A stretch of DNA of 26,991 nt, taken from NCBI GenBank assembly GCA_000310025.1, contig FN649742.1:3653378-3680368 (forward strand), written 5' to 3'. Numbering within the stretch: the first letter of the stretch is position 1; each line of letters opens with the position of its first letter. Source of the DNA: Ectocarpus siliculosus. Taxonomy: Eukaryota > Sar > Phaeophyceae > Ectocarpales > Ectocarpaceae. Position numbers and translations under genes: made by a program. Positions 5,259-24,594 of the stretch are shown piece by piece. The notes beneath the pieces were generated by a model that was given only the letters and a program-made list of their open reading frames with translations, ran no database searches and was not told the DNA's origin.

Positions 5259-8200
5259 CAAGTTTCGTGAGCCATCCCAAGAGAAATCACAACGCGGCAG
5301 AGAAAAGCGTGTACGCAAGATTATACGGTAGTTGCGTCCATGAGGGGACACGCAGACACGAGGGTGGAAACGCACGAGATGGGGGCGGAGGGGGAGCGAG
5401 GCTGTAGTGAGGGGTCGTGAGCAAGCCAGCGGGGGGAGGTGGGGGTACCAAAATTTGTGGCTAGGGGGGTCGAGTACAAATACAGATTCCACTGCTACTT
5501 GTGTGCATTGCTGGTACCGAGCCTGCGGCACGGACCGGCACAGGCCAGCTGCGGGCGGATCGTACGTCATCACCAAATAACGACGGTCAACACAGCCTGG
5601 TTCTGTTATTTTCTTTTCGTCCTCCGTGCTTTCGGGACGGCACGAGAAAAAAAAAGATAGAAAAAAACATCGACAACTTGTAGAGCGGCAGGATAAGCCA
5701 GGGTATTCTCACCATACGTACGCGCAACACAAGTTTCAGTGGCATTTGCCATCTTTCCAGTGTGTGTTGCTCTGTATGGTACCATGAGCGTTTTCGGCGA
5801 CACACCTTCGCCGAAAAGAAAAGTGGAACACATGGGCACCAATACACTCGAGAGGGGAAGAAAGAGCCTATCGATTTCTTTTGTGCTCGCGATTATCCAT
5901 TCATGGCAACATTTCTCAAGCACGCCAAGCGAAGCCCGTGCAGTAACCCCTCCCCCCCTCCCACTGAGAACCTTGCCTTGCCACCCAATACCAACATGCA
6001 CCTAAAACGTAAACACTCATTTCGTTATCTCTTTCTCACGATCAAACCGCCCCAAAACCCCGCCGCCCGCCCACCCTCCCCACGTAGGCCAAGGTTTCAC
6101 ACCTCAACTCACCACGGTGGCGCGATCTCCCACAAGCACCCTCGTGAAACCGTTGGCGAGGCACACGCCGCCCCGGCTGAGGTAGCTCTGCGTAAGGGTC
6201 ACATGCGAGTCCGCTCCGGCCTTCACGACAAGCCGGGGGTGGCTCACCGTGGGCCCCTCCTCCCCCTCGGAGAAGAAAATTACCTATGGAGCAGTAGTAG
6301 AGATGCGCGGGTTATTTATGGGCGGGGACCTCGGAAAGTTGGTGGTTTGTAAGCACGTGCAAATATGCACGCGCGTGCACCAAATGCGTGAGGGAAGGAG
6401 GGAGGGAGGGACGCGATTAACGGCAGCACCCTCAGGTGCAGGCTTGTTGACGCTGCTTACGACCCTCGCATGCGCTTATTCACGAAAGTCACGAAACGGA
6501 TATATTGATGAAATACTAAATCGATAGATAATATGGTGACGAGACTGTCCAGTCTATTCCTCGTTCACAGAAAAGCTGCAGCGTCGTATCTAGCACAAGC
6601 ACAGAGAAACGAATCACACCAACAGCAGCGGGCGGAGTATTTCACGCTTGGGGGCTGCTGCGTCCTCTGTTGAATACGCTTCAAACCTAGACACCCACAC
6701 AGACGAAACACCCAACGACAACTAGAGTGTTCGCCACGATCGATCTTTCATCCATTACCACAAGACGAGACAGCACCCTCTCCACTACCGCCGTGACCTC
6801 CTCTAGAGAGGACTACGAATGTGCGTCGAAACCGCTCTGCGAAACAAACTCATGATGGAAAACTCACACGACACAGACCCAGACACAAAGACGGACAGCA
6901 GTGCCAGAGTCACAATCTACAGAGGAACGAGAATCCGGGGCGCGGTGCGTCTGCGTACCACACAGAAGATTTACGAATGTTTTTACCACAAAGCTCGTCG
7001 AACACCTACACACACACTGCTGTCGGTAGAACCCTTATCCTTTGACCAGAAAAAAGTGTTCGTGTGTCTCATCTATTTAGCTACAATGGCTGACATCGTT
7101 TTCATTGGTCGGTCGGATAGCACGGTCGATCCTACCAAAAAAATTACCCAGCTATAACACAAGACTGACGCATTTTCATTGGTCGGTCGGTTAGAACGGT
7201 CGATCCTAAAAAAAAAAATTACCCAGCTACAATACAAGACTGACGCATTTTCATTGGTCGGTCGGTTAGAACGGTCGATCCTACCAAAAAACTTTCCCAG
7301 CTACAATACGAGACTGACGCATTTTCATTGGTCGGTCGGTTAGAACGGTCGATCCTACCAAAAAAATTACCCAGCTACAATACAAGACTGACGCATTTTC
7401 ATTGGTCGGTCGGTTAGTGCGGTCGATCCTATCAAAAAATTACCCAGCTACAATACAAGACTGACGCATTTTCATTGGTCAGTCGGTTAGCACGGTCGAT
7501 CCTGACAAAAAAATTACCCAGCTACAACACAAGACTGACGCATTTTCATTGGTCGGTCGGTTAGAGCGGTCGATCCTACCAAAAAAATTACCCAGCTCCA
7601 ATACAAGACTGACGCATTTTCATTGGTCAAGCCGGTTAGTGCGGTCGACGCCAACAATAAAACACACCTGGATGGGCTTCTCGACGGTAACGCCGTCCGC
7701 CACCATGATCACCCCCGCGTCGGCAAAGCAGGCCTGGTTCAGGCTGGCGAACGCCAGAGACCCCTGAGTCGTTCGGAAGTCGGCGTCCTTCTCCGGCAGG
7801 TACGACAACATTTCCTTTGCCTGGGTGGGACGTTTCGCGAGGCCACGACAGCAGCAGTAAAAGGTTAAGGTTTCCAACACGAAAAAAAACAAAAACAAAC
7901 AAGAACGTGCTGGATTTTGTTGCCCAAAGGCAAGAACGCCGCTCTCAAGAAACACGGGGAGAGGCGGGGGGGGTACAAACGAGTAACATTTGAACAAAAA
8001 TGGAAATAGACAAAAAAAAAACGTAGATATATACCCCAACTCCGATTTTTTTACAAAAGTTGGGGGGCTCAACGAAAAAACCACCTCGCGACAGCGACCG
8101 TCCCGTGAGCGAATCCAACCCCTCCAATAGTCAGTATGGTGCCTAGAGAACATGGTCAGGGCCCATGCACAGCATGAAAATCATTTCTTTAACGGATTTT

Positions 8201-11200
8201 TCTTCCACGTCTTTAGGCACAACACCATGGCGGAACACAAGGCCTCAACAAGCTGCCCTATTTTGCCCCAAACTCCTGAGGGTATACCCTCCGAATCCAC
8301 GATTTGCTTTTTCAGTCACCCACACAGCTTGTTTTACCCTTTGTGTACACTTCCGAGACTGTTTCGTATGTTGCGCCGTGCGGTGGCGTGGAGATCTACC
8401 TTTCGAGGACCCAAAAGTGGAAAAATGTGGGTAAATATTTCGGACACAACTGGGTCGAACAATAGACGAAAGTGGGTGGTCGAAAAACACGTGGCAGTAG
8501 AGTTCGGTGGGCATAAACCACTGAGTTTCGGACAAAATAGGGCAACCCGTTGGAGGCCTTTTGCGCCGCCGCGTTGCTTGGCCTGTAGACGTCCAAGAAG
8601 ATCTGTAAAGTGCGCTTGCTGTACATGGGCCCTGACCATGTTCTCCAGGCATCAGGTTGACAATTAAAGTGGTTGGACTCGCTCACAGGCGGTCGCCGCG
8701 AAGCAATTTTTGTACCTTTCAGCCTTTGTGTGGAAAAGGGGCCGATATACCAACTTTCGTCTATTTCCCGACAAAAAAAAAAAAACTCAAAACGCCCTCG
8801 AAGCCACACACCAAAAAATCACCTGATCGAGCGGAGCCCCCTCGATAGCCCCGATGTGGCCGGCCACCAGCCCCTCCACGCCCCCCAGCGCCGACACGTC
8901 GCTGAGCTCGTCGCTGAACACCCCGTTCACGAAGACCATCTGCTGGCCCTGGCTCGCCTCCAGCAGGTGCGGCTTTATCGCGGCCGCTGTCTCCGCTGCC
9001 GTTGTTGTTGGCGCCGCTGACGTGAAGTCGGTCCGGTAGAGAGACTCCAGGTCCGTGTAGCGGTAGGGCTCTTGCTTGCGGGTGGGCAGGGCCAACTCTG
9101 CGAGCTCGGCCTCGCCCGCTCTTGGGGGGGTGTTTTTGAAGATGACACGTTTTTCAACCGAAGGTATAGATAAAACGACGAGTGCGGTAGGGGCAGGGGA
9201 CAGGGGCCACGTGAGGAGGGGGGGGGGTGTTGGGCGGCAGAAAAGTCGCCGACGGATGCGTGGAAAGAAGAGGGAAACACGCTGGGCTGTTATATAAAAT
9301 ACATATTTCGAAGTAGTATCGCCAGACGCAATGGTTAGTTGGGGCTGAGTCGCGAAAGATCGGAAGAATGCGCATGAAAAGTATCGCCAGGCAGCGGAGG
9401 TTGTGGTTCGTGTGACGGGTCTGCACTGAGTCCCCGTAAGCCCATCGCGCAGCATACGCCTGCGTTGGTACGTTTCTAGATTTACCTGGGCAGACCCTGT
9501 ATTCTGTCGTTTCCAAAATCTAAACAAAATATCCAGATGGCGAGTGTTCGGCAGGAGGCACGTTGTCACCTTGTTTGATAAGTCCGGCGAAAAAAACAGC
9601 TGTCCTCTTGTATACTCATATTTCGTTTAGTGACATGCCCCCTTCACTTTTGATTTGATTTTGCAAGTGGCAACTGGGGGGGGGGGGGGGGGGGGCGTCT
9701 CTCGATCCCTTTGGGTGGAATCCTTAAATCCTTCCGTACAAGGGCGGAGAAAAAATCGACATCTTGTCGCGCGCTTCGTCAGCGCGCACGTGTCTTCACG
9801 GCGATACCCGTAGCGCTTGGGCGCCCTGTTGTTGATGCACCCAATACCATGCCTGTATCTTACGGCTTACACCGAAAATAGAGCCGGTCCCCCGGTGGTT
9901 CAGTTGGTAACCTTAGCCCCGTTAACCTTCCGACTCTGGATTGCGGGTTCGAACGCTCTCTCTCAGGAGCATACGAATCTTAGAAACACAGAGGTGGAGA
10001 GCGCCAAATGGTAATCGTGCATAAACCCAAATGCAGGGAGGGAGCTGCTGCTGAACCCCTTCTCCGATTAAAGATTGAAGGCAAGCAATGAAGGGGAAAG
10101 GCGGAAACATGTGTATACCTCAACGTGTAGACTGGGGTACTGACTAGATGAGACCGAAGCGCCCGCACAATCTGGTGCAAATCCAAGTGACGGGGATGGC
10201 CTTGGCTGGTCGTGTGAAAACCATGTCGCTCTGTACGGGTAAAGTTATGTTTACCGCCCAACGTATTGTGGATCTTCGCTCTCGAGATATGCATACCTTC
10301 ATTCATTTGATCGTTTGACCTGGTGCCACGAGGTCTACTCTGTACAAGTGGTGTACTGCTGTGTGCGTCCCTCTTTAAACTTCTCATGAAGCACAGCAGC
10401 AACGTCCTCCGTGTCATTGCTTGGAAAAAAAAAGCATGTGTGTGAATGTCAATGTGTGAAGTCAACTCAGCGACAAACCTGGAGACAACCGTCCCATGTG
10501 AATCCCATGTGAATGCATTTGTGTGTGGAACACATTGTAGGACAAGAGCGGGATGTTTTCCAGCTTGAATTTTCATCTCTTGACACGACCAAAAACAACC
10601 AAAAAGGCTCACTAACCATGGTATTGCAACCTTCGAAACTCTGAAGGCCGCGAGAACCTCCCTCCGACAAGCCCCTTGTGACCGCAGTCAAGGCAAACAG
10701 TTAGCTCACAAACATCGCTACATCCACCCAGTACACCTGCTGTTTACCTAGTACAGCAGTAGTCCAACAGCAGTCCAACATTCAATCTGCTACCCAACTT
10801 GAGCCTGCAAATCCCAACTAACTTAGAATGTAGGATGCATGCGAAAACATGCCGCCACCGAGTGTAGGATTTCACGGTAGGTTGTGGCATGGTCTACACG
10901 TGTTGACTTCGAGCGCAGCGAAGAAAATATGTTGTTTCACTCACTTAGAAAGCTCGACAAGCGAGTCTGGTCGAGGAACCGCCCCTTCCCTGATGGCATC
11001 GAACCACATCCGGGGGTCGCGCCTCGGTACGCGCACGAAGGGCTTCATCTCGTTGTTCGACACCCCCTTCTGCTGCGTCTCCAGCAAGCTCCCGGCCACC
11101 GCTCCCTGGTTGTCCTCTGTCGCAACGCCCGTGGCCGACAGAACCCCATCCCCCTGGCGCCCCGCTTGCGCCGATCGCGCTTCTCCTGTGCTTCGACGAC

Positions 11201-11366
11201 GCAACCCTTGCGCCGCCCCAGAGCCTCCTGCTCCTTTCATGGGCGCGGAGAGGAAAGAGTCGGCGGTGGGTGCCAGGGAGAGCAGCCCCGCCGCAACCGC
11301 CAACAAGGTCGATACCCTTCGGGACTCGGACCCGCCATTCCGGCTTCGTTGTGCTGTTCGCTCCAT
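940..11366 (-). CDS. sufD: SufD, plastid Fe-S cluster assembly protein (seven exons, 3' end missing)
   Basis: SufD partners SufB and SufC in the SUF scaffold that builds Fe-S clusters in plastids; SufB and SufC are typically plastid-encoded in red-lineage algae (family knowledge). Seven exons join in one frame to 519 codons. Residues 1-17 are basic and polar, 18-37 form a hydrophobic signal peptide, and ADS-FLSAP at 35-42 matches the ASAFAP-type cleavage motif with Phe at +1. The mature part starts with a variable stretch, then LPTRKQEPYRYTDL (152-165), the family's N-terminal signature. The beta-helix core includes RQDVHS (416-421), FKGRIVI (448-454) and KCTHGAT (492-498); the His there is probably the one important in bacterial SufD (from memory). 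The last visible residues are SRGISKIQ, so a C-terminal helix of some 30-50 residues is missing. The first intron is phase 2, the other five internal introns phase 0. ATG 11366 is the first Met in frame. Identification is strong. Confidence 0.93.
1370..1385. repeat. G16 homopolymer
   Basis: Sixteen consecutive G on the plus strand inside sufD intron 6, a likely source of length error in sequencing. Confidence 0.95.
1703..1856. repeat. degenerate ~60-bp tandem repeat, about 2.5 copies
   Basis: CTCGAGACAGCC-like cores recur at about 1729, 1789 and 1834. Each is preceded by GA(G/T)ATA(C/T)AGCGG-like sequence and the first two are followed by CTGCCTGAGG or TTCCTGAGG. The last, shortened copy runs into the exon 6 splice donor. 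Confidence 0.7.
1857..2042 (-). CDS. sufD: sufD exon 6
   Basis: Acceptor TTTGCAG|ATCGAC, donor CGAC|GTGAGT, phase 0, 62 codons (394-455). It carries LLETGSHCNIF, NNQRQDVHSTIRHKAEGTTC and FKGRIVID, which are SufD core motifs. Confidence 0.93.
2063..2100. repeat. (CAGG)n microsatellite at the intron 3' end
   Basis: About nine CAGG units on the plus strand. On the sufD strand it reads as CCTG/TGCC repeats just upstream of TTTGCAG|exon 6, so it occupies the place of the polypyrimidine tract. Confidence 0.93.
2431..2676. repeat. inverted repeat, ~75-bp arms, ~95-bp spacer
   Basis: The reverse complement of 2431-2505 matches 2600-2676 with a few mismatches; the common core is GGGCGCTCCTTTGA...GTTTCAATCTACAGCCGT...GTGCGAGATTCGA. 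Both arms therefore encode the same peptide in mirror frames, which explains two open frames that look related. Probably a decayed hairpin transposon. Confidence 0.85.
3999..4073. repeat. (GA)n microsatellite
   Basis: About 37 GA units with two GGGA interruptions near the right end, inside sufD intron 5; read as (TC)n on the sufD strand. Confidence 0.97.
5079..5213 (-). CDS. sufD: sufD exon 5
   Basis: Acceptor CACAAG|ACGCAC, donor CCAG|GTGATT, phase 0, 45 codons (349-393). It reads VDTVSVDQTTNSTYSVNQVL and GAFDARANFQ, matching the SufD repeat before the RQDVHS exon. A (AAC)12 microsatellite sits just upstream of the acceptor on the coding strand, so the acceptor could lie a few codons away. 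Confidence 0.86.
5214..6112 (-). other. sufD intron 4
   Basis: Intron between exons 4 and 5. Apart from the GTT microsatellite at its 3' end no gene or clear repeat was seen. Confidence 0.8.
5223..5258. repeat. (GTT)12 microsatellite
   Basis: Twelve perfect GTT units, (AAC)12 on the sufD strand, ending about 9 bases before the proposed exon 5 acceptor. If exonised it would encode poly-Asn. Confidence 0.97.
6113..6283 (-). CDS. sufD: sufD exon 4
   Basis: Acceptor CCATAG|GTAATTTTC, donor GTG|GTGAGT, phase 0, 57 codons (292-348). The acceptor was chosen because EKPIQ from exon 3 then continues as VIFFSEGEEGP, as in the family. It contains HPRLVVKAGADSHVTLTQSY, a conserved beta-helix turn of SufB/SufD. 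Confidence 0.9.
6284..7667 (-). other. sufD intron 3
   Basis: Intron between exons 3 and 4. The left half shows nothing recognised; the right ~570 bases are a tandem array. The open frame at 6819-7157 runs into the array and has no family resemblance. Confidence 0.8.
7081..7651. repeat. 74-bp tandem array, about eight copies
   Basis: The landmark TTTTCATTGGTC starts at 7099, 7173, 7248, 7322, 7396, 7469, 7543 and 7617, a period of 73-75 bp. The unit has GGTCGGTCGGTTAG, CGGTCGATCCTACC, an A run, TTACCCAGCTACAATACAAG and ACTGACGCA. Copies differ by few substitutions and A-run length; the last is cut off at about 7651, near the exon 3 donor. Confidence 0.96.
7668..7820 (-). CDS. sufD: sufD exon 3
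   Basis: Acceptor CACCCAG|GCAAAG, donor CAG|GTGTGT, both phase 0, 51 codons (241-291). It contains SLAFASLNQACFADAGVIMV and GVTVEKPIQ, the typical SufB/SufD segment before the beta-helix core. A 74-bp tandem array starts about 17 bases beyond its donor. Confidence 0.92.
7821..8822 (-). other. sufD intron 2
   Basis: Intron between exons 2 and 3. More than half of it is the foldback element at 8137-8655; A-rich tracts lie around 7880-8070 and 8770-8820. No gene seen. Confidence 0.8.
8137..8655. mobile_element. foldback-type element with very long inverted arms
   Basis: The left end GAGAACATGGTCAGGGCCCA (from about 8148) returns in reverse complement near 8622-8645. Similarity continues inward: CCCTATTTTG near 8261 and its complement near 8533, and CACCCAC near 8318 and near 8472. 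The two arms are about 230-250 bp each, very roughly 75% alike, with little loop. Open frames on both strands share ALFCPKL-type peptides because they are mirror copies. No transposase is present. End coordinates are approximate and no clear target duplication was found. Confidence 0.8.
8823..9120 (-). CDS. sufD: sufD exon 2 (N-terminal SufD signature)
   Basis: The acceptor CCAAG|A supplies one base to finish the Lys codon split by intron 1, and the donor is CAG|GTGATT. It codes residues 141-240, with LPTRKQEPYRYTDL near its start and FVNGVFSDELSDVSALGG further on, as expected for the SufD N-terminal domain. Confidence 0.9.
9676..9695. repeat. G20 homopolymer
   Basis: Twenty consecutive G on the plus strand in sufD intron 1. 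Confidence 0.95.
9885..9965 (+). other. tRNA-like or SINE-head sequence with A and B boxes
   Basis: TGGTTCAGTTGG near 9896 fits the pol III A box and GGGTTCGAACGC near 9946 fits the B box. GGTT-CAGTTGGT-AACC can form a 4-bp D arm. A proper acceptor stem and a five-pair T stem cannot be drawn and the A-B spacing is long, so it is probably a tRNA pseudogene or the head of a tRNA-derived SINE rather than a working tRNA. Confidence 0.4.
10945..11366 (-). CDS. sufD: sufD exon 1 (bipartite plastid presequence)
   Basis: Codes residues 1-140 plus two bases. It holds the signal peptide (RVSTLLAVAAGLLSLAPTADS), the FLSAP transit-peptide start and a Gly/Ala/Arg-rich linker, ending in LVELS. The donor is AA|GTGAGT (phase 2). 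The longer open frame upstream starts at a GTG, so ATG 11366 is preferred. Confidence 0.88.
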
Positions 11367-11780
11367 GTTGGCTAGCACGTCCAGAGGTGGTGGTCCTAGC
11401 TAATGGCGCAGGACAGGAAGCCACGGCTGCTGCCAGCTCTACAGCAGAGGCAATGGTATATGACATTTTTTTTTTTTTATTGTCATATACCATTGAGCAG
11501 AGGGAGGATCGGAGGGGGCTCCGTGACATACATATAGAGAGGTGACCCATCACACGTCATGTATGTGTTGCATGATCGGCCCCTGCTGCGCCATCACATT
11601 GTGGTGTGGATACGGCCGTCCCATGCGCTGTGGCTGGGCGCAACAAGCTCCATCCGCTACGCGTTGTGGTCAGGAAACGGTGGCCAACTGCAGTCAAGTT
11701 TTTCTTGTAGAGGGGATTGGCAGCAAATAGAATGCACTTGCTGGCGAACAGACAGCAGCCAGAGTACGCCAGCCAGCGTG
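11367..11780. promoter_or_regulatory. sufD upstream region, left flank of the retrotransposon
   Basis: Noncoding stretch between the sufD start and the LTR element. It must hold the sufD promoter unless that lies beyond the insertion. No TATA box is convincing. It contains a strong hairpin (11451-11495). Confidence 0.45.
11451..11495. repeat. perfect 15-bp inverted repeat with T-rich loop upstream of sufD
   Basis: CAATGGTATATGACA (11451-11465) and its exact reverse complement (11481-11495) flank 15 bases that are almost all T, 85-130 bases upstream of the sufD ATG. It could be a tiny MITE remnant or an RNA hairpin in the 5' leader. Confidence 0.9.
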
Positions 11781-11785
11781 TCTGG
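11781..11785. repeat. target site duplication, left copy (TCTGG)
   Basis: TCTGG directly precedes the 5' LTR and directly follows the 3' LTR (17489-17493), the 5-bp duplication expected from an integrase. Confidence 0.95.
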
Positions 11786-12273
11786 TGTTGGATGTACTCA
11801 CAGCATTGACAGATTATTGCAACCGAGGAATGTTCCTAGAAGATGGAGCGGGGGATTTTGGGGGTTCCGCAGTTGTAATAAATTGGGGGAATGGTGGTAC
11901 CATCTTTGCCACATATTATTGTTTTCTGGGTATGCGTGTCAGCAACGGTGTTGGCCACGTGCCCTTGATTTATTCATCTTCCTTTTTCCCGGCTATCACG
12001 CCCTGGGCTATCACGCCCGTGCCCATACTACCTATCCACCATCTATCACGCTGCCAGGCTTTCACGCCTCTAGGCTATCACGCCATCACAACAGCTATCA
12101 CAGCACCAGCGTCAACACATCAGAGCTATCACGCTCCGGAACATCATAGATGCGGCGGGTTACCACACCCGTGGGCAGTTTACTGTATTTTATCGTTGCC
12201 GGCAAACTCGCCAGCGCGGTTCTTTTATTTTTGCCCGTCTACAACTGCGCCGGGCGCACCAAGCCACCCAACA
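11786..12273 (+). repeat. 5' LTR (488 bp)
   Basis: Begins TGTTGGATGTACTCACAGC and ends CCACCCAACA. By eye it differs from the 3' LTR only by two extra bases, in GCCAGCGCGG versus GCCGCGCGG and TTGCCCGTC versus TTGCCGTC. It contains an early AATAAA (11877-11882) and a cluster of CTATCACG motifs. Confidence 0.96.
11991..12140 (+). promoter_or_regulatory. CTATCACG motif cluster in the LTR
   Basis: Five exact CTATCACG copies plus the variants CTTTCACG and CTATCACA occur in 150 bases, irregularly spaced, several as GGCTATCACGCC. The same cluster is in the 3' LTR (about 17208-17357). Repeated short motifs in an LTR often are enhancer or factor-binding sites; that role is inferred. Confidence 0.65.
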
Positions 12274-12420
12274 CGCTAGCGTAATAGATCAAGAAAGTGG
12301 CTGCTGTGTCTGCGCGAATAAGACGGCTGGAGGAGATGGACGAAGACCTCCGCGGGGACCAGGGACTAGTTCCTCTCCCCACGGGGAAGAACAACGGGGG
12401 GGAAGGACGAGGTTCGTTGA
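12274..12420 (+). other. 5' leader of the retrotransposon
   Basis: The primer binding site should start here, but no TGG-initial tRNA-complementary sequence follows the LTR. The first bases form the palindrome CGCTAGCG (12274-12281). An ATG at 12336 opens a short frame (EMDEDLRGDQGLVPLP) one register away from gag; it could be the real gag N-terminus. Confidence 0.5.
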
Positions 12421-13668
12421 ACCTCCCCAGATGTGGACCAGCAGGGAGGAACGAAAGCAGCCGCGGATGGAGGGGAACAAGATCCAACTATCGCCCTTGT
12501 CGACCTCCTCCGCCGGGTTGCCAACTTCGCCTCCCAGACTCCGGGACATGACGTCCGCTCAGGCACGTCTAGTTCCCAGCCCATAGAGTTGAAGCTGAGA
12601 GAGAGAGTCGAAGTACCTGAGTGGAATGATGCTTTCTTGAAGGATCGAAGTGTGACTGTCGCGTTCCGAATTTTTACGAGTTGTTTCTCAGGGTGGATGG
12701 ATGCAGAGGGTCTTGAAGAGATCATGAGAGGAGAAGAGATTCCTGTGGGTTCGTTGCACGTCGATAAGACTTGGTTGCGGCAGAGGTATGGCGATGAAAG
12801 TGTTCGAAAGGCCACGAGAGTCTGGATGTGCTTGATCACGAAAATCAACGTTCAACCTATACTAGACCAGATACTAGCTTCAGAGAGTCCACAAGCAGGG
12901 TGGAGAGTGTTTCAGTCCTACTACACTACAAACAGGACGCATGAGAGAGAAATCCTGGACGGCACTTGGAACTGCCTTAGACAGAAGCATGGAGAGACTC
13001 TGGTCGACTACTGGGGAAGGGCGAATACTGTGTGGATGCAATTACAGTCTTGTGGGGACAATCGAGAGGAGACGTTAATGTCGAGACACTTTGCACGTGG
13101 CTTGCTCCCAATGTACGACGATGTCAAAGACCGTATTCTGTTCCACCCCATGCTTTCGAGAGGTACTCTGGAAGAGACGCTGAGGCTGGTCGAGCACGAG
13201 CAGAGGATCAAACGGAGGTGTGGGGAGGGGATCGAGGACACGAGGCATGCGCCCGTCGCTGCCGGCGCAGGCCGGGACGGCGGCATGAGGAGAGCAGCTG
13301 CTGCGGGAGCGGATGGCGGACCATCTCATGAGCAGAGAGGTGCCTTCTTCTGCCAGGTTCACGGAGCGAACTCCTCCCACAACACCCCAGACTGCCATAA
13401 ACTTCGCAAGGACTTCTTGTTCCACTACAACGACTTCATGGCGTTCATTCGCGAGAGGGACGGTATGCGGGGACCAGGTTTTCCTCAGGCCGGGGGGCAA
13501 GAATCGGGGCGCTTGTCGGGCGGATCATATCGAGAGCAGCTGCACCAACTCGACCAAGGGGCAAGCTGGGGTCGGGGCCGCCCGTTCTGTCCCCGTTCTG
13601 CAGGGCCCGACGCTGATGAGCAGCGAGTCTTCAACGAGGCCTTTAGCACCGCTACTCAGCCGGCGACT

Positions 13669-13718
<50 letters not shown>

Positions 13719-14091
13719 CATCGGCGCTAATCCAACGACCTCTGCCTCCTCGACGGCGACCCCCTCTCCACCTCCGGGCGACACTCCTCCAGCAAGTGGC
13801 GCCCCTCTTCGTCTCTTCCTCACACGTAGTGTGAATTCTCTAGGCGAGTCTGATTCTGTGTCTGGAAATGAGATTAGAGTTGTTAGTGATGGGGAGGTGT
13901 CTGGTGTTCCCGTTGCTGGTATGTCTGTGCCTGATGTTCCTGTGGTTCCTGTGGTGAAGCCTGCTGTGACCTTTCAAGCCCCGGTATGGCACACTAGGAT
14001 GTCAACACCCAAAGGTGGTGAGCAGTTGCAGGGAGACCTCGGGCGACGAGTGCGGGGATGTTTTGATGCGAGGGGAAGGTGTTGCGTCTAA
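12421..14091 (+). CDS. gag: retrotransposon Gag polyprotein (Copia-like), N-terminus uncertain
   Basis: Capsid-like protein of the LTR element. Counting from a GTG at 12433, residues 50-260 are helical and match the Copia gag pattern: GWRVFQSYYTTN at 156, LRQKHGETLVDYWGRANTVW at 182, FARGLLPMYDDVKDRIL at 220. A zinc-knuckle-like C-x2-H-x5-H-x4-C lies at 307-321 (C307, H310, H316, C321). A Gln tract follows at 413-430, then a Ser/Thr/Pro-rich tail. The frame opens after a TGA at 12418 and has no ATG until 12697, so translation may start at 12336 in another register (frameshift), at a non-ATG codon, or this copy may be mutated. The stop is TAA 14089-14091. Confidence 0.85.
13670..13716. repeat. 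(CAG)n tract in gag
   Basis: Uninterrupted CAG repeat coding about 18 Gln near the C-terminal third of Gag. Confidence 0.95.
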
Positions 14092-14096
14092 GTGTG

Positions 14097-14564
14097 ATGT
14101 GGCTGTGTTGGGTCGTGCCGAACCAAATGGATGTTGACGGTTTCCACCACCGCGCTGGCTACTTTCCCCAACCCGTTTTGAGTTTGACTGCCAAGCAACA
14201 AGGGAACACCCTCCCCAGGGAGTTGGGACCCGGGGCCATCGCCGCTTCGCAGCCCGCTGCCACCGCTGCGCCTTGGCCTGTAGCCGCCGCCGCCGCCGCC
14301 GCCGCCGCACCACCGCCGCTGCCGCCAAGTCCCGGGGCACCCGTGCCGCCTGCATCCTCGCCGGATGTCGCCGCGCTGCCGGACCCGCGGATGACTGCGA
14401 CGAGGACTACCGCCGCTCCGCTGCCCGCCGCTGTTACTACCGCCGCGCCGTTGCCGACACGCAAATCGGTGCCGACCTCCGAGGCCGATGGACCACATCC
14501 ATCTCCGACGGCGCGTATTGAACGGCAAGCCGATGATTTGGCCTGGGATGATACGGACCGGTGA
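14097..14564 (+). CDS. small Ala/Pro-rich open frame after gag, doubtful
   Basis: Its first ATG is 6 bases after the gag stop, in the -1 register, giving 155 codons. The sequence is low complexity with a (GCC)n-coded Ala run followed by Pro-rich stretches and ends DDLAWDDTDR. No protease Asp-Ser-Gly or integrase zinc motif is present. It may be noncoding GC-rich spacer rather than a protein. Confidence 0.25.
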   Translation: MWLCWVVPNQMDVDGFHHRAGYFPQPVLSLTAKQQGNTLPRELGPGAIAASQPAATAAPWPVAAAAAAAAAPPPLPPSPGAPVPPASSPDVAALPDPRMTATRTTAAPLPAAVTTAAPLPTRKSVPTSEADGPHPSPTARIERQADDLAWDDTDR

Positions 14565-16211
14565 GCTGGGGGAAGGCGAGCTGGGGGGCGACGAGATGGA
14601 GGGCGGTGGAGAACAGGATGTTTGGGAGGGGTGCATGTGGGAGATCAAGAACAACCTGCTGGGGGTCGCCCCTCCGAGCGGGGCACTCCGTTTGGGCTCG
14701 TGACGCGCCTTGCATCGCGCGACGACATCGAGTCTGATCTAACAATGTGGGTTTCGTGTTTAGTTTAGTTTTTTTTGCCTTTCTTTCTGGCAGCGCGTTT
14801 TACTTTTGCACTGGTTTTTTCTTCTTTGTTGCTGTTTTTATGTACATCCAGAATCATGGGGGGGGGGATGTCATGTGTGACCATGATTCTAGAGGGCATG
14901 AACAGCAATTCGATTTGTTTTTGTTTCCCCATATGAACAGCTACCTTTGCAGGGGGGCTGTCTCCATGTTTGTTAGTTGGCATTTTGATATTCGCGGAGT
15001 GTTCTTGCATGAACTCTGGAAATGTAAGGGGTATGTTTCGGGATGTGACAGCGGGGGGCTGTCTATATGTTTGTTTAGTTTTCTATCCGTTTCGTGGACA
15101 GCAACGGCGGCACCGATTTGCGTGTGCGCACTGTTTAGTTTGGTGCTCAACGACTATACTGGAGCAAGGAGTTGGCAGGAGTGATTGTTAGGGCCTATGT
15201 GCTTTCCGAATACTCGTTTCTGTCGTACAAGAAATTGTAACATTGTTTCGTTTGAGTTTTTGTGCCTACTCTTTGAAGCTGTTTTCCTCAGAATTGTCCG
15301 TCCCCATTCCGATGTTTTTCTGATGCAGCGCTGCCGCTTGTTTGGTATTTGTCTGAGAATGGTTCTGTGCTGTTGACGGTTTGAGATAATTTCCAGAGAA
15401 GGATGCATCGCCCAGCGGGGATGGAAACCACGGGCAACGGCGGTTTAGTGACAGATGTATGCGGGTTTGTGGATCCGGAATTGTTTTTTTGGTTGGTTTT
15501 TGGTTTTGGCTTGTTTCGGCGTTCTTTCGGATTTGATTTTGCGATTGAAATTGCACCTGCAAGAATATTTGACGGCATGAAGGCTGCGTTGAAACTGTTC
15601 AGAAAGGATCATGATGATGGAATAGGGTTATTGGTTTGAATCCTTGCGGCCATGTCGCGAAGGCCGCTACTATGGTTGTGCTTGTTGTTTTTGTTTTTTC
15701 CTTCTGCGTGTGGCATTTTTTTTAGGTAGAAGGCTCTATCTACATTGTTGTTGTCCCCTGTGTGTTTGGCGCGCCTCTCCATGTACCATCGGCCAGGGGT
15801 AACCCCTCTATTTATATAAAATGCTATGTCTTCGATGCTGTTGTCAATTGGTCATTGGGGGGGGAATTGGTGTGTCATGACAATTAACTACAGCAATGTT
15901 ACGAAGAATGGAATGTTTCGTCTGTTTTCGATGTTCGATTTGCAGAGTTCGGGATTTGACAATGCAGGTTGCGATTTTGGGGTTGTTTCCAGTACCCAAA
16001 TGTCACAAGATGCGTTTATCAAGTAGAGGGTTGATCCCTTCACGTCTGGTGTTCGGAGAAGGGGGGCCGCAGCCAGACATGCATGGGTAGGGTATGCAGG
16101 AAGAAAATAAAAGGTATTGTAGGAAACTGAACGAACGGAGGTTTGTTTGTGTTTGAGGAAAAATAATGAAAGAAGAAGGGGGGCCTATCTTTGTAGCACT
16201 CCATGACTCCA

Positions 16212-16310
16212 ATGTACCTCGCGCTGTCAACCACGCAGGCAGGGCACGTAGCGATGTCACATGTTTCAAGGAGATTTTGTTTCTGAGGCAGGTTTGGTGT
16301 TGCTCCCATG
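16212..16310 (+). pseudogene. fossil of Copia RNase H domain, frameshifted
   Basis: In one frame MYLALSTTQAGHVAMSHVS resembles the Copia RNase H motif region (typically ALSTTEAEY...). After about 16267 the similarity continues in another frame as KEILFLRQVW, the usual next segment. A one-register break and substitutions at key positions show it is dead. The length is short, so the match is suggestive rather than certain. Confidence 0.6.
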
Positions 16311-16649
16311 TTGCTGAGGTATTCTGGTTTGTAATTTCATCGTGTTTGTTGGACATTGAATTCAAGATTGGCCGATAGAAAATACTCGAAAGGGTTTTTT
16401 TGTATTAATGGTCTTCGTGTTGTTATGAGGATGAGGTATTATTGTGGAGTCGAGCATTTTTGTGCAATCATGATTCTTGTGCTACGTGTGGATTTGAAGT
16501 CTCCTCGGAAAGTGATTTGTCCCGGACGGTGTTGGATGTGTTTGCATTTGTGTTCGTTTTCATTTGTTCCTGATATAACCCATTGCGGTTGTTTCCACGA
16601 TTTGAGTTTTGGATGATTTGATATTGGGAATTTGAAATTCATGAGCGAC

Positions 16650-16865
16650 CGATGGAAATTGTTGGTGGTGTTCCTGGTTTAATGGTTTGGAACCGATGGG
16701 AATTGCAATCAAGTGTTTCTGGTTTAATGGTTTTTAGTGAATGTTTTGATCTTTGGAGATTCTGGATACAATGGAGACCGATGGAGATTCTGGTAGTAGG
16801 TGTTTCTGGTTCGTTTGCGATCAAATGGAAGTTCGAACTAGTCTCTCTGGTTTAATGGTTTATGG
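16650..16865 (+). repeat. short interspersed repeats before the 3' LTR
   Basis: CTGGTTTAATGGTTT appears near 16674, 16719 and 16847, and ACCGATGG three times near 16648, 16691 and 16777, each followed by (A/G)(A/G)ATT(G/C). They look like two interleaved degenerate units. Confidence 0.7.
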
Positions 16866-16987
16866 TTGTTGCAAGAGGATGGGAGGAGAAACGACTGTTG
16901 CACAATGACATTGATTTCTGGAGTTTTTGGGGATGGGTTTCGTGTGATGCATAATATAAGCAAGTTCGGGTATAATCTTGACAATGC

Positions 16988-17002
16988 AGCGAGCAGGGGG
17001 GC
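16988..17002 (+). other. probable polypurine tract
   Basis: GCGAGCAGGGGGGC directly precedes the 3' LTR at 17003, where the plus-strand primer is expected. It is short and interrupted. Confidence 0.5.
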
Positions 17003-17488
17003 TGTTGGATGTACTCACAGCATTGACAGATTATTGCAACCGAGGAATGTTCCTAGAAGATGGAGCGGGGGATTTTGGGGGTTCCGCAGTTGTAATAAAT
17101 TGGGGGAATGGTGGTACCATCTTTGCCACATATTATTGTTTTCTGGGTATGCGTGTCAGCAACGGTGTTGGCCACGTGCCCTTGATTTATTCATCTTCCT
17201 TTTTCCCGGCTATCACGCCCTGGGCTATCACGCCCGTGCCCATACTACCTATCCACCATCTATCACGCTGCCAGGCTTTCACGCCTCTAGGCTATCACGC
17301 CATCACAACAGCTATCACAGCACCAGCGTCAACACATCAGAGCTATCACGCTCCGGAACATCATAGATGCGGCGGGTTACCACACCCGTGGGCAGTTTAC
17401 TGTATTTTATCGTTGCCGGCAAACTCGCCGCGCGGTTCTTTTATTTTTGCCGTCTACAACTGCGCCGGGCGCACCAAGCCACCCAACA
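17003..17488 (+). repeat. 3' LTR (486 bp)
   Basis: Same ends and sequence as the 5' LTR apart from two 1-nt deletions; followed directly by the right TCTGG. Confidence 0.96.
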
Positions 17489-17493
17489 TCTGG
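17489..17493. repeat. target site duplication, right copy (TCTGG)
   Basis: Matches 11781-11785 exactly. Confidence 0.95.
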
Positions 17494-17789
17494 TGCGCGG
17501 AAACGCGGCCGGCCGCGTTTGTCAAGGTCGTTTGTTCATACAGTATGTACGTTCATACAACTCGTGGCCGCCTCTGCTACTACGACTGACCCCAGATATC
17601 CGCAGCGCGTGCAAAGTTGTGAATCCTGAGAATTTGCAATTGACCAGAGCGTACGTCGAAGCTAACGCCGCTAATGGATGGTGAGTGAAGCATGTGACCG
17701 AGAGTTAGAAAAAAAAGTCAACAAGACCGACGACCTCCCTCATACGCATACATCCGACACTAAGGGAGATCGTTCCTAAACTAGTAGAT
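17494..17789. other. gap between LTR element and MITE
   Basis: Contains a perfect 20-bp palindrome at 17501-17520. A short open stretch 17601-17682 ends at GATG|GTGAGT and follows GACCCCAG, so it could be a small plus-strand exon (ENLQLTRAYVEANAANG), but no family is recognised. Confidence 0.4.
17501..17520. repeat. perfect 20-bp palindrome
   Basis: AAACGCGGCC followed by its exact reverse complement, starting 7 bases right of the retrotransposon target duplication. Confidence 0.95.
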
Positions 17790-18010
17790 TACCGTATATG
17801 ACACAAGATAACACACCCCCTTGGCCGATTTTCAAAGCTCAATTTCTCAACAGCAGGAAGAGTCACAGCGCCGAAAACGGCGGCGTTGGAACCGTCTCGT
17901 CGAGAGCTGTTCGAAAACGTATTGTTTCGTTTATGCATCCTCTTCATCGTGGAGTAATCGAGCTTTGAAAATTGGTCCAGGGGGTGTGTTATCTTGTGTC
18001 ATATACGGTA
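17790..18010. mobile_element. MITE with TA target duplication, Tc1/mariner type
   Basis: Inverted ends start CCGTATATGACACAAGATAA at 17792 and return in reverse complement ending at 18008. Similarity runs about 50-60 bases inward (ACACACCCCC, then TTTTCAAAGCTC) with few mismatches. TA dinucleotides flank both ends (17790-17791, 18009-18010). At 217 bp with no transposase it is non-autonomous. The small open frame inside (17821-18015) reads through the right arm and is not taken as a gene. Confidence 0.88.
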
Positions 18011-18736
18011 AGTGACAAAAGGAGATGAGATCTCGAGCACGTCAATCAGTTGAAGATAAGGTCCTGGAGTACCCCCAACAACAAAGCGATGCCGATCAGT
18101 TGCAAAGGCATCAGAGCAAAGCCGTGAGTGTTAACCGATCCTCGCGACAAGAATACAGGCCACGTGGATGCAAGCATCTACTCACTGCTGTAGAGTACAG
18201 TATATACTGTACAGCGTAGAGGCCGTCAGTCTACATCCTGTCCGACTGACAGCTGTGTGCCCAGCCTCGGTTTGCTCCACGCAGAAAACGAACATGTAAG
18301 ACTCTCGTGGTTGTATCACAGAATATACCTTGTGCAAGCAAGTACATGCAACGTACATATATTGCGAGGAAACGTCTGGATCGTTGCCGATGTTCAGTTG
18401 TTTAGTGTTGATATCGATAGTTAGACTGGCCCATATCGTCTACGGTACAGCAGTACATAGTCCACAAGCACGTGGTACATTTTTCCTGAAAAGAGGGAAT
18501 TCACACACACACACACACACCTCAATGCACAGCTACCGGCATGCTTTCATTGACAAGCCACGGTACTTCCAATGCAAACTAAATAAATAAATACACACGC
18601 ACGCACGCACGCAGAGTGAATACATACATAGCCAGCGGTTGTTTCGCTCTCGCGGCTTCTTCGCTGTGGTACAGCAGGACAATTCAGAGCTTGGTCGAGA
18701 GTATCCCGCGAGCCTCCCCCGCTTCCAACCCCACGT
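18011..18736. other. intergenic, downstream of the TPR gene
   Basis: No gene recognised. Contains an 18-bp palindrome (18195-18212), an (AC)n tract near 18502-18520 and (ACGC)n near 18597-18613. Confidence 0.6.
18195..18212. repeat. perfect 18-bp palindrome
   Basis: GTACAGTAT followed by its reverse complement ATACTGTAC. Confidence 0.95.
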
Positions 18737-19268: not shown

Positions 19269-22200
19269 CTGTGGCGGCGGTGGTGCGTTGTGCCACGAAG
19301 AAGGCAAAGGGTAATAGGTGTGGTGGTTGCGCTGAGAGTGTGGCACATGTAGCGACAGTTGGGCACTTACTTCTGTAGTAGGGACACTCGGAGCTTGACC
19401 TGAGTTCCTGAGGACGCTCGTGCTCTCAACGTCCGAACCGATTTACACATCGTTTCACCATGGCTTCTTTACGCAAGCCCAAAAAGACACAAGGATAAGA
19501 CACAGAGACACTGCCGGACAGAGAAATCGACCACCTCTCCCCGGAGTTCTAGTGCAAAGTTCTGGAAGGGTGATACCAAAAGGCATACAAGGATTTCACA
19601 ATGTACGAAAATGGTATGAAGTTGCCGGGAGGGACATCCCGACCGCCCATGACGCCGTTCCGCTCGAAGCGAGGAACAGTACACCACCTTTACAACACAG
19701 ATACGTACAGTGGCTGAGGGAGAAGAACACAACCCACAGGCAGCGCGTACGTGCACCCGTGCCCACCTAGCGGCGGAGAGGGCGTGGCTCAGCACGCCTG
19801 TCCCTACGTTGGAGTTCGGTTGTCGCGGGCGGCCAGCTCGCTCCCCTCCTCCGCAAGCGCCCCCCCGTGGCCTCCGATTGCCGCGACGGATCAGATCCTC
19901 TCGCACTTTACTATCTCTAGCGCTTATTGCTCGCCGCGCGGCCATGGTGGAGTTGCGGAGCGTGACGGTGACGGCGTGGTTCCCACCCAGGTACTTCTGA
20001 GCCACCTTCATGTCACAGCAACGGGGAAATAGGGGCAAGCACAGAGATCTTTTTATCCTCCGGCATGAAGAACCCCATATGATTTGATGGGCTCATGGAA
20101 AAAATCACTGAGACCTAATCTTTGCTGGGGCCTAACCTTGCGGATGGAGGGCGCGAAAGGATGTGCCCCACACCATGTTTTTTGTTTTGCGGGTCCTCCC
20201 CTCGCTTAGTGGTAACGGGGCACCGAGCCTCGATCTTGAGCGATCTACAAATGCCAAACGCCGTACCCCCGCGAGGGAACTCAGAAAGGACTCAATCGTG
20301 CCGTCACCTCGACTCCTTTTCTGTAGGATTGCAGGCTGTGCTCAAACTTCTTGAGAAACTCCTGCTCCACACCCATGTTATGGTAGGCGATGGCCAGCAC
20401 GGCGATTCGATCCGCCCGCGGGGGCTGGTCCCCGCCTTCCCCTCCAGCGTCCCCAACCGTGGCCCCGCCTCCAAACAGCTCTTCTTGCAGGAGAATGAGC
20501 GCCGACTGGGCGTGCTCCAGCGCTCCTTGATGTCGCCCGATTTGCGAAAGCACCGCGCATGTGTTGAGGTGGGTGTCAGCCGGGTGCTCTACCCGCGACC
20601 CCTTCTCGGTTCCGCCGTCGCCGTCCAAATCGCAGACACGAAAAATGGTTAGCGTACATGATACATATAGGGGTTAGTTGTGGCACGGTTTTTCCAAGTC
20701 AATGGCAGAGTTTGGTAGCTGAGTGCGGGCGACCGCTTTGATTTGTCCTTTGAGGGCTTCAATGTGGCAAGTTTCCACTGAAAAACCAGAGTTCCCCGTC
20801 GAGAATGCTATTAAAGCTAGCTCCAGCGCCACCACAAACGTCAATCATGAGTTGTTGCTTGTTGCTTCCGTGTTGACTTTGTTGCTGATAATTAGAAAGT
20901 TGGAGAGTGGCTTAAAAGCACCACAAATCACCGCCTATTCCCCTCGTGTCAGTCTAGATTCTCTTCTTGGATTGACGTCTTGCACGTAAATCACACAAAT
21001 ATGTGACAATTTCATGTCGAACCAAGCAACAAGGCAACACAGAAAAAAACTGGACGCAGTACAAAAACTGGACGGGAACAAGGAGAGCCGAACTCAAGTC
21101 TGCAGCACGCACTACGCTTTAAGGCAGTTTTTCTGGTTGTCGTGCCTTTTGAAGGAAATGCGAATGCCCGTAATCTGTGAAGCTTGGTTTCATGACTTCA
21201 AACGCCTGCCGACTAAGGAAGTGCGTGCAAGCAGAGGGTATCGAACCTTGGGTAGACTGATTCTCCGTTGGGTTTGGATTCCAAACATACCAAACCTTGT
21301 GTTGATCACTTCCTCAACCAACCGTGTTGTGTAGATTAGGATGTTGGCACACATATCTCGCTTGGGTGACTTGTTGCAGAACACAGCATTTTCTTTACAT
21401 TCGAATCCCAGCTGCAACATCTGACATGTTTACGTTACCATCCGATGCAATAACTACTATTGTCTTATGCCCAACACCGGCATCGCTGCTGGCTGTCTAG
21501 ATACTAAACAAATTGACAGAGACCAATATCGAGGGAGCATTCCGAGGAGTAAGCTAAGCACTCGACGCAAGTAATCCCAAATGAGCAAGTAATTTTTCTC
21601 ACTCAAAAACATGCTCGCCATTGATTATGGACCAAACCCACCATTTTCGCTTCGATCTTGAGAGCCTTGTGGAGGTATTGTAGCGCGGAGTGCAGCTTCC
21701 CGCGTCGACGGTAGTAACACGCGAGGTTGTTGTACGTCACCGCTCGCCCGGCATCATCCCTCTCGGTAAGAATTTCCGCCTTCTTCAACAGCTCAAGCAC
21801 CATGCCGAAGTCCTCCTGCTGCAGGTAGGTCATGGCGAGAAGGTTGCACATCTCCCCGACTATCTTACAGGCGCTCCAAACTTCCTCACTGTCGCTCCCA
21901 AAGAAGTGCTGCCGAAGCACGAGGCCCCTCTCCATGCATTCCAGCGCTTGCAAGTAGTCCCCCTGTGTTGTGGAGGAATCACATGATCATCAGGAATGAT
22001 GGTACAATGTATGCTATGCATGACGTGTTGAAGGCTGGCGTATCTACAGTGCACATGGGAAGATCTTTTGGGGCGTGAACAGGCGTGAACAAGAGTCACA
22101 CAACATCGATAGAGACCCTTTGGAAAGTGTCTCAGCGGCGGGCGTGTTAGTCACTACAGGTTATCCAATGGCTGACTGGACGGCTTTGTTTCGAGGTCTG

Positions 22201-22895: not shown

Positions 22896-24558
22896 GTGAG
22901 CACCTGCATAGTGCGTGGCCTATGGATTTCAGCACAAGTGAGCTATTCCGGGAGTAGTGCCCTGCCTTGGGGATCCAAGGTTGGCTACAAATTTTTGACT
23001 CAATTTTCAAACCGGTGACTGCTTGCTGTGCAACGTCGGTCCTTCACGACTGCAGTGTCGACGGTGGTGGAGGACGTAGAATGCAAAGCACATTTGCCGG
23101 TTACATATTTACAGAGAGGCCCTTCAATGCTGCCTTCATTTTCTGCGTTTCTGCGGTTCCCTCCGGTCAGTGGATCGGTCGCAGCAGAAGGGTGCATATT
23201 TCAGCAATTACGTGTACATACCGGCACAGCAGCTCTCTCCGAACGACAGCAGTAGTGTCTCAGGAGGAGTTCATCCAGCATGTGTCTGCTGTATACGGCT
23301 GTGCGCTGCGCGGTGTGCAAGAGGGCATATCGTTCCGTACCTGGTGGAAACACCAACCACGGCGTTGCCGCCCAAGTTTCACCATGTAACTTCGAGATAC
23401 CACTGCTCTACGGGGCTGGCTCTGGTTTGGGTCACAGCTAATTAACAGCAGAAAGTACCGCAAACATTAGAACAACACTGCAAGCTCAAGCACGACCATT
23501 TACAGCAAGAGCAAGACGTTGGCCGTGGCCGCTGACCACTTGCTGCTTGGCCATCCGCTGCGCCGCTCTTGTCCCCACAGGGTCGCCTTACTCTGCGGGA
23601 TCGTTTTCGAACGCCGGTCCCCCGCCGCTGCCGCCGGGAGGGCACCACCAGCCCCAGGGACGCCTCTCCGCACCGCCGCCAAGGCCGGGCCAACGCCCTT
23701 CGTTCGACGCCAAAGTGGCCTCTGAGTTCCTTCGACTGAGAGAATCCAGGGTTTCTCCCCGTGACAGCCCTGCTGAAATTACTAGCGGAGGAAGGTGGGC
23801 AGGAGCACCGGCACCGGAAGCGTTCGAGTCGGACGTGGCGAGAGCCATGCGTGATCTCGAGGTTCGGCTGGCGACGGCGGCGGCGGCGGGGGGGGGAGAA
23901 GCAGGGGGGAGGGGAGGCGATGATGCTGCTGCTGCCGTTGACGGCGGCGGGGGGAGGTGGGTGAATGGATCACGGCAATCTTCTTCGTCTTCGTTGCGGC
24001 CTCCTCCTCCTGCTCCTCCTCCGCCAGCAGTGTCGGCGCGACCGGAGCATTCTGACGACCTCTCCGCGGGCGGCGAAGGCATGCTGTCTCAGATGGACAT
24101 GCACAGGGTGGTCTCGCGCGGAGGCAAAGGAAAACCCGGTGGGCTGAGGGGTATGTGGAACGACGACGGTGGGGTTGAAAGAGACGAAACTGGGGCGCGT
24201 CGGCCCAAGCCGCAACGAGGAGGAGACTTAGTGGGCATGCAGGATGAGCAGGTTAACGCTCCTCCCGAAACCAGGGGCGCGATGCCTTTCCCCCTTGGCG
24301 ACGGGCGAAGGCACTCGTCTGTGCAGCAGACGCGAAGGCAAGGGCCTGGGCTAAAGGGCATGTGGGGCGGAGACGACCCCGCAGCTGCTACTCCCGCCTC
24401 TTCTCTCCGCCCGCAGCGGCAAGGGCCCGGCCTCCGGGGGCTGTGGTCCGGCCCGGACATGGCGGCGGCCGACATTGCGAGGAGCGAAGCCCAGGCGGCG
24501 TATTTCGACGCGTTGACCCGGGACGTCCAAGAGAAGCGGGCATTCTCGAACAATCCAG

Positions 24559-24594
<36 letters not shown>

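Follow-up and report, generated by a model that had tools for sequence, protein, structure and literature searches.

A gag-only LTR retrotransposon family of Ectocarpus siliculosus with pol remnants and a candidate Copia-type helper

Long terminal repeat (LTR) retrotransposons that carry gag and lack the genes for their enzymes are a kind of element that is already known. In Ectocarpus, several Copia families with a single gag-related open reading frame (ORF), such as Copia-N1_Ec32 and Copia-11_Ec32, were reported earlier (PMC12477816), and the large GAG-related elements (LGA) of E. siliculosus were called a novel type, with their autonomy left open (PMC3145265). Plant elements of this sort, the TR-GAG of Chaparro et al. 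(2015), are described in PMC8704663 and PMC10552921; one of them moved in Arabidopsis ddm1 and has a potentially autonomous relative (PMC8704663); the non-autonomous elements BARE-2 and LARD are named in PMC10552921. Here we describe a gag-bearing element in a stretch of 26,991 bp of the E. siliculosus genome (contig FN649742.1, forward strand, positions 3,653,378 to 3,680,368; G000:C17:3653378-3680368 in our numbering), which we call the window, and its family in the whole genome searched (189 Mb, 492 contigs). Its sequence makes it very probably a young, non-autonomous LTR retrotransposon of the Ty1/copia type, a gag-bearing satellite derived by internal deletions from an element with the order gag, protease (PR), integrase (IN) and reverse transcriptase (RT). 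Its closest pol-bearing relative is termed family A below. The original prediction, made from the window sequence alone, held that gag-bearing non-autonomous elements are little described in brown algae, which the available passages of the two Ectocarpus reports contradict. In our view, the origin and the driver of gag-only LTR elements are not often visible; in the present genome, ordered pol remnants can be seen together with a relative that has gag, pol and common terminal signals.

Compared by description only, Copia-N1_Ec32 and Copia-11_Ec32 are likewise gag-only Copia elements, and the passages at hand on them are silent on pol remnants and on a named helper. The likeness to LGA, also by description only, lies in the LTR-element structure, the present element having LTRs and a Cys/His (C/H) motif. 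The LGA ORF has about 400 amino acids and a C-terminal zinc finger (PMC3145265), whereas gag here lies within a frame of 712–929 codons in eight of 11 sister copies. Where LGA were regarded as a novel type, the pol remnants and the relative with gag and pol speak here for an origin from Copia by deletion and for dependence on help; the anatomy described here would answer the question whether such Ectocarpus elements can move alone with no, and it points to a candidate helper, so that the question becomes testable. Two LTRs, a single gag ORF, no enzymes and a potentially autonomous relative are shared with TR-GAG (PMC8704663), with the addition that small pol remnants remain. While the Arabidopsis relative is highly similar to its TR-GAG, the candidate helper here is more distant (43–52% identity in gag), and the 5.7-kb element differs from TR-GAG further in its 2.3-kb 3' region. 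TR-GAG elements as first described are said to be under about 4 kb, a size that this element, at 5703 bp, exceeds. BARE-2, which has no working Gag, and LARD, which have lost all genes, are LTR elements that rely on a partner to move; the present element would share this dependence but retains gag. The passages found in the literature on such elements describe neither pol remnants nor a candidate helper, nor the composites reported below.

Structure and copies of the element

The element occupies positions 11786–17488 of the window on the plus strand and is flanked by the target-site duplication TCTGG on the left (11781–11785) and on the right (17489–17493). Comparison of its 5' LTR (11786–12273, 488 bp, TGTTGG...CCAACA) with its 3' LTR (17003–17488, 486 bp) shows the same first bases (TGTTGGATGTAC) and last bases (AGCCACCCAACA), no substitution and two gaps of 1 nt. 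An LTR pair differing by only two 1-nt indels, and TCTGG on both sides, had been predicted, and both statements hold. Directly 3' of the 5' LTR lies the presumed primer-binding side, starting with CGCTAGCG (12274–12281), and the same eight bases adjoin the LTR of family A. The polypurine tract AGCAGGGGGGC (16992–17002) precedes the 3' LTR, and the last 36 bases before that LTR have three differences from family A. TG...CA ends of the LTRs, a polypurine tract and a 5-bp target duplication are end features of Ty1/copia elements, and all are present. In the 3' region (14735–16991), the Pfam scan recognised no gene in the two ORFs scanned, and the genome search showed part of the region to be 72–73% similar to at least nine other places. 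No Rfam family matched in the window at gathering scores, and no tRNA gene was found there for the primer tRNA, the tRNAs of the genome not having been scanned. As a separate observation, the LTR contains six YTNTCACGC motifs at 11993–12134, compared with a maximum of one in 2000 single-base shuffles, and by eye the LTR of family A shows repeats of a similar kind; the motifs are possibly promoter elements.

A genome search with the 488-bp LTR, suggested along with the original prediction, listed 42 matches from the best 40 of 157 candidates scored: at least 40 LTRs at 96–100% identity and two weak matches at 76–77%. The 40 scored LTRs fall into 12 pairs, spaced 5.2 kb apart, and 16 that stand singly. 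The pairs delimit 12 full-length copies, that in the window and 11 sisters, which lie on ten contigs with differing flanks. Internal regions of the sisters are 97.8–99.7% identical to that of the window copy. Ten of the twelve copies, the window copy included, have 0.06–0.28% substitutions among themselves (0.15–0.28% between the window copy and its nine closest), and the remaining two (L026 and L027) are 1.07–1.45% from the other ten. The two LTRs of a copy are free of substitutions in eight of 12 cases and differ by 1, 2, 2 and 3 substitutions in the others, and matching 5-bp target duplications flank all 11 testable copies (the window copy and ten of the eleven sisters). The twelfth, L025/L037 (C48:236187-242499), is a tandem that reads internal tail, LTR, internal region, LTR. 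An internal sequence that recurs from LTR to LTR at 12 places, with duplications, is a feature far beyond chance, and the near-identical copies, the duplications and the substitution-free LTR pairs support the earlier view of a young, recently moved element.

The same data bear on the concern that the LTR pair was duplicated, or a repeat collapsed, during assembly. Runs of N in some related loci would fit such an artefact, as would single extra bases that occur in the window copy only and hint at base errors, but the occurrence at twelve places, spread over ten contigs and differently flanked, with duplications in 11 of 11 testable cases, refutes it for the element, and we give it practically no credence. 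Errors of single bases in the window copy stay likely.

The copies also bear on whether only the window copy arose by internal deletion, from an autonomous family with the same LTR. Pol remnants, described below, show that the lineage once had pol, as this account would require, but the copies found make it very improbable. By context, 33 of the 40 scored LTRs adjoin the family's own gag-only body, six are solo LTRs with matching flanks (C290, C33:1151160, C26:4344864, C21, C38 and C20), and one (C33:4256485) is a solo LTR without a duplication; the 16 singles are made up of these seven solo LTRs and nine that border the family's internal sequence on one side, two of which sit within composites with family A. 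In no case among the 40 did the context mark the LTR as that of a pol-bearing element, although the solo LTRs were judged without a scan of their flanks for pol. Among the best 78 of 1353 candidates scored in a search with the gag protein, rows of at least 86% identity were grouped into 23 loci, and no match fell between 55% and 86%. The 3' region (best 40 of 146 candidates scored) was found, whole or in part, at all 23 gag loci, at 810–851 bp from gag in 22 of them and at 1002 bp in the C11 locus, where the gag match ends 65 residues early. This short spacing excludes pol at all 23 loci found, since RT and RNaseH would require far more space; that every copy carries pol and the window copy alone lost it is thus excluded for these loci.

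Gag and the remnants of pol

The gag frame of the window copy (12421–14091, plus strand) has 556 codons from stop to stop, with its first in-frame ATG at codon 93. Reading and alignment place a C-x2-H-x5-H-x4-C motif (CQVHGANSSHNTPDC) at 13351–13395, with equal spacing in family A; we take it to bind zinc, and no profile matched it. For Gag itself, neither PF14223 (E 0.19) nor PF03732 (E 0.0069) reached the Pfam cut-off, and none of the six ORFs scanned in the element matched an RT, integrase or protease profile at up to E 1. A long, open gag had been predicted, and the 556 codons agree with this; yet seven bases (12390, 12428, 14040, 14041, 14061, 14072 and 14123), each missing from 10–11 of the 11 sisters, disturb the frame near 12.39–12.43 kb and 14.04–14.12 kb and break the longer frame seen in eight of the sisters. 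Because the substitution divergence from the nine closest copies is so low, we suspect that these extra bases are sequencing or assembly errors, in which case the two indels between the LTRs may be errors as well. By reading, gag is unbroken beyond the C/H motif in nine of the 12 copies. Variants over 530 codons in the 12 copies number 12 synonymous, 13 nonsynonymous and one stop (pN/pS 0.33, binomial P 0.006, in a rough test that ignores transition bias and shared descent), which suggests that Gag is in use.

A Gag that looks conserved and would be made without enzymes could also act chiefly to restrain related elements in a dominant manner, the spread of its own family being incidental. Self-restriction by a Gag protein is known from Ty1 of yeast. 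For the element described here we regard such a restriction-type Gag as improbable, as the gag-only family has itself spread recently, and family A is also young and has multiplied.

Behind gag, the element keeps short pieces that match pol of family A. A protease-like remnant, the stub PKGGEQLQGDSG as read in the sister copies (approximately 13996–14055, plus strand), agrees with family A in 12 of 18 residues (E 0.005 in a two-sequence comparison) and falls outside the reading frame of the window copy; its label rests on a DSG motif, presumably a sign of protease, together with the match to family A just before Pol_BBD. It is followed by a pre-integrase-like remnant (MDVDGFHHRAGYFPQPVLSLTAKQQGNTL, 14127–14226), so named for where it lies in family A, ahead of the integrase core, and for a motif that we take to be typical. 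This piece, read in sister L025, where the frame has 801 codons, is identical to family A pol in 28 of 67 residues (E 2e-8, two-sequence comparison), and no Pfam pre-integrase profile matched it. An Ala/Pro-rich linker (14284–14451) resembles the family A stretch between integrase and RT (70% over 175 bp), a match of low complexity that is weak evidence taken alone, and 14509–14546 is weakly similar to family A DNA (76% over 38 bp). A remnant of the IN-to-RT linker (PSERGTPFGLVTRLASRDDIESDL, 14670–14734) matches family A with 81.5% identity over 65 bp (E 3e-13); its counterpart in family A ends shortly before RT, and no RT follows in the element.

The remnants are collinear with family A and so keep the order of a gag-PR-IN-RT element, while the element itself has no catalytic domain. 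The predicted absence of pol is accordingly overstated: no enzyme profile matched and the copies found have no room for pol, but protease-like, pre-integrase-like and linker pieces remain. From the shared order, the simplest history would be at least three internal deletions, which took away the protease body, the integrase core and everything from RT onward (including, we infer, RNaseH), and spared gag, the intervening pol pieces and the terminal signals.

Family A as candidate helper

The LTR of family A has 522 bp. In a search with it, 41 matches emerged from the best 40 of 160 candidates scored; one lies at a place of the gag-only family, and the other 40 are at 99–100% identity. At C3, family A has a gag ORF of 774 codons and an ORF of 630 codons with Pol_BBD (E 8.8e-9) and the integrase core (E 2.6e-9), then a linker and RT (RVT_2, E 1.5e-17), all over the cut-off. 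The domains thus stand in the Copia order gag, PR-like, IN, RT, the protease being identified by Pol_BBD together with a motif that we take to be characteristic. The C29 copy carries gag and PR-IN in one frame of 1792 codons, although such frames may include runs of N. A piece of the RT recurs at 96% identity or more in at least 14 places (best 150 of 423 candidates scored), and by its sequences family A is young. Through family A, the assignment of the element to Copia, already part of the original prediction, appears supported.

The two families resemble each other in gag and at their ends. Gag of the element, read in L025, is identical to that of family A in 200 of 460 residues (43%; 52% in the core). 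The first 21 bases of the LTRs are the same, with 124 of 161 bases (77%) identical over the LTR start, and the rest of the LTR aligns with a score of 236 against a maximum of 147 in 200 shuffles. On the primer side, 95 of 126 aligned bases are identical, and of the 70 bases before the 3' LTR, 52 of 69 agree, including 33 of the last 36. An autonomous partner with the same LTR ends had been predicted: none with the same LTR was seen among the 40 scored LTRs, and a relative that shares the terminal signals does exist. We infer that family A is the best candidate helper and that mobilisation would occur in trans. RNA of the element would be transcribed from its LTR and packaged by its own Gag; another, related element, family A being the most likely one, would supply PR, RT and IN, and the latter two would recognise the common primer side, polypurine tract and first LTR bases, and integration would yield the 5-bp duplication. 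We consider it probable that Gag works in cis and that family A provides the enzymes in trans.

Several observations weigh against this reading, as does the roughness of the codon test given above. Stops lie inside the gag match at eight of the 23 gag loci and other loci are split, so that many copies are damaged. The C3 copy of family A has a run of N after the integrase, carries gag and pol in different frames and has an in-frame TAG in RT, and frames of more than 2,500 codons elsewhere suggest runs of N in other copies too; the autonomy of family A is therefore only putative. Its LTR, moreover, differs from that of the element, and the identity in gag is no higher than 43–52%. RT-bearing Copia places are also many (at least 150 RT matches, from the best 150 of 519 candidates scored), and this leaves room for a helper from another Copia family, or for several families acting without specificity. 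A family whose gag is 31–32% identical has long open frames and RT nearby, and help across families has been raised for a different Arabidopsis element (PMC8704663, in the passages available). We nevertheless think such a helper rather unlikely, as family A is the closest by gag among the candidates scored, is itself young, and has the same LTR start, primer side and polypurine tract as the element, the ends having been compared with family A only. A further RT-bearing element, L038, near the C26 copy, was rejected as partner; it is a separate Copia with 219-bp repeats.

Two composites join the families directly. At C3 (C3:979155-991357; L039/L049/L050/L056) and at C26 (C26:359144-369748; L042/L057), a piece of the gag-only family sits, inverted, inside a family A element that has family A LTRs at both ends and the duplication TATCT or ACCGC, respectively. 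The joint is at the same base in both, at CGCTAGCG behind the family A LTR. With family A LTRs at both ends and a duplication of its own for each, the composite has apparently been copied at least once via family A ends; separate insertions at one site would be the alternative. For cereals, complex elements that arose by template switching have been described (PMC1950507), and an inverted joint is not among the features given there in the available passages.

The TAG that closes ORF1 of family A falls in the N-terminal part of RT, and beyond it the reading frame continues as an open frame of 473 codons. The exact place was read in one copy (C3:981626, minus strand; L062/L061), where the context CCC TAG CAA CCA fits what we take to be the leaky-stop form UAG CAR YYA. 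A query of 75 residues with X at the stop (best 150 of 320 candidates scored, 150 of 151 matches listed) gave 143 rows that span the position and seven that begin after X; by hand count, TAG is present in 138 of the 143, at 44–100% identity, and is lacking in C458, C27:1085465, C119, C455 and C489:1160917. As copies belonging to a few families, these rows are not independent of one another. One possible meaning of the pattern is programmed read-through from gag-PR-IN into RT. In most diatom Copia elements, gag and pol are separated by no more than one stop or frameshift (PMC2806351), and Tca2 has UGA there (PMC2194720); both, as far as the passages go, lie at the gag/pol border, a different place from the TAG inside RT. 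A stop codon inside copia RT is not described in the passages of the open-licence literature searched, including PMC12477816 and PMC2806351.

The conserved TAG could matter more than the element itself. A tentative extension of the proposed mode of movement, which we hold to be possible but doubtful, is a long-lived satellite lineage that has kept only its own Gag, under purifying selection and now drifted to 43–52% identity, and short terminal signals for the enzymes of a partner whose RT, behind the TAG, is perhaps scarce. If true, partner RT would be made only by read-through, and a satellite with its own shell could compete for it.

Other features of the window

Upstream of the element, the minus strand at 8787-11399 has a SufBD_N match (8787-9623, E 3.4e-5). 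An ORF there that may start near 11366, some 420 bp away from the element, has no Pfam match and may be the first exon of the SufBD_N gene. A direct tandem repeat at 7064-7702 has seven register copies spaced 73–75 bp. Inverted repeat pairs of 63–73 nt, 84–91% complementary, lie at 2438-2667, 8102-8689 and 17789-18011, the last about 300 bp 3' of the element, and are possibly small inverted-repeat transposons. On the minus strand, ORFs at 20281-21986 have TPR matches, over the cut-off at 21603-21983 and under it at 20281-20670. Finally, an open frame of 783 codons on the plus strand (23442-25793) has a weak CCDC66 match under the cut-off.

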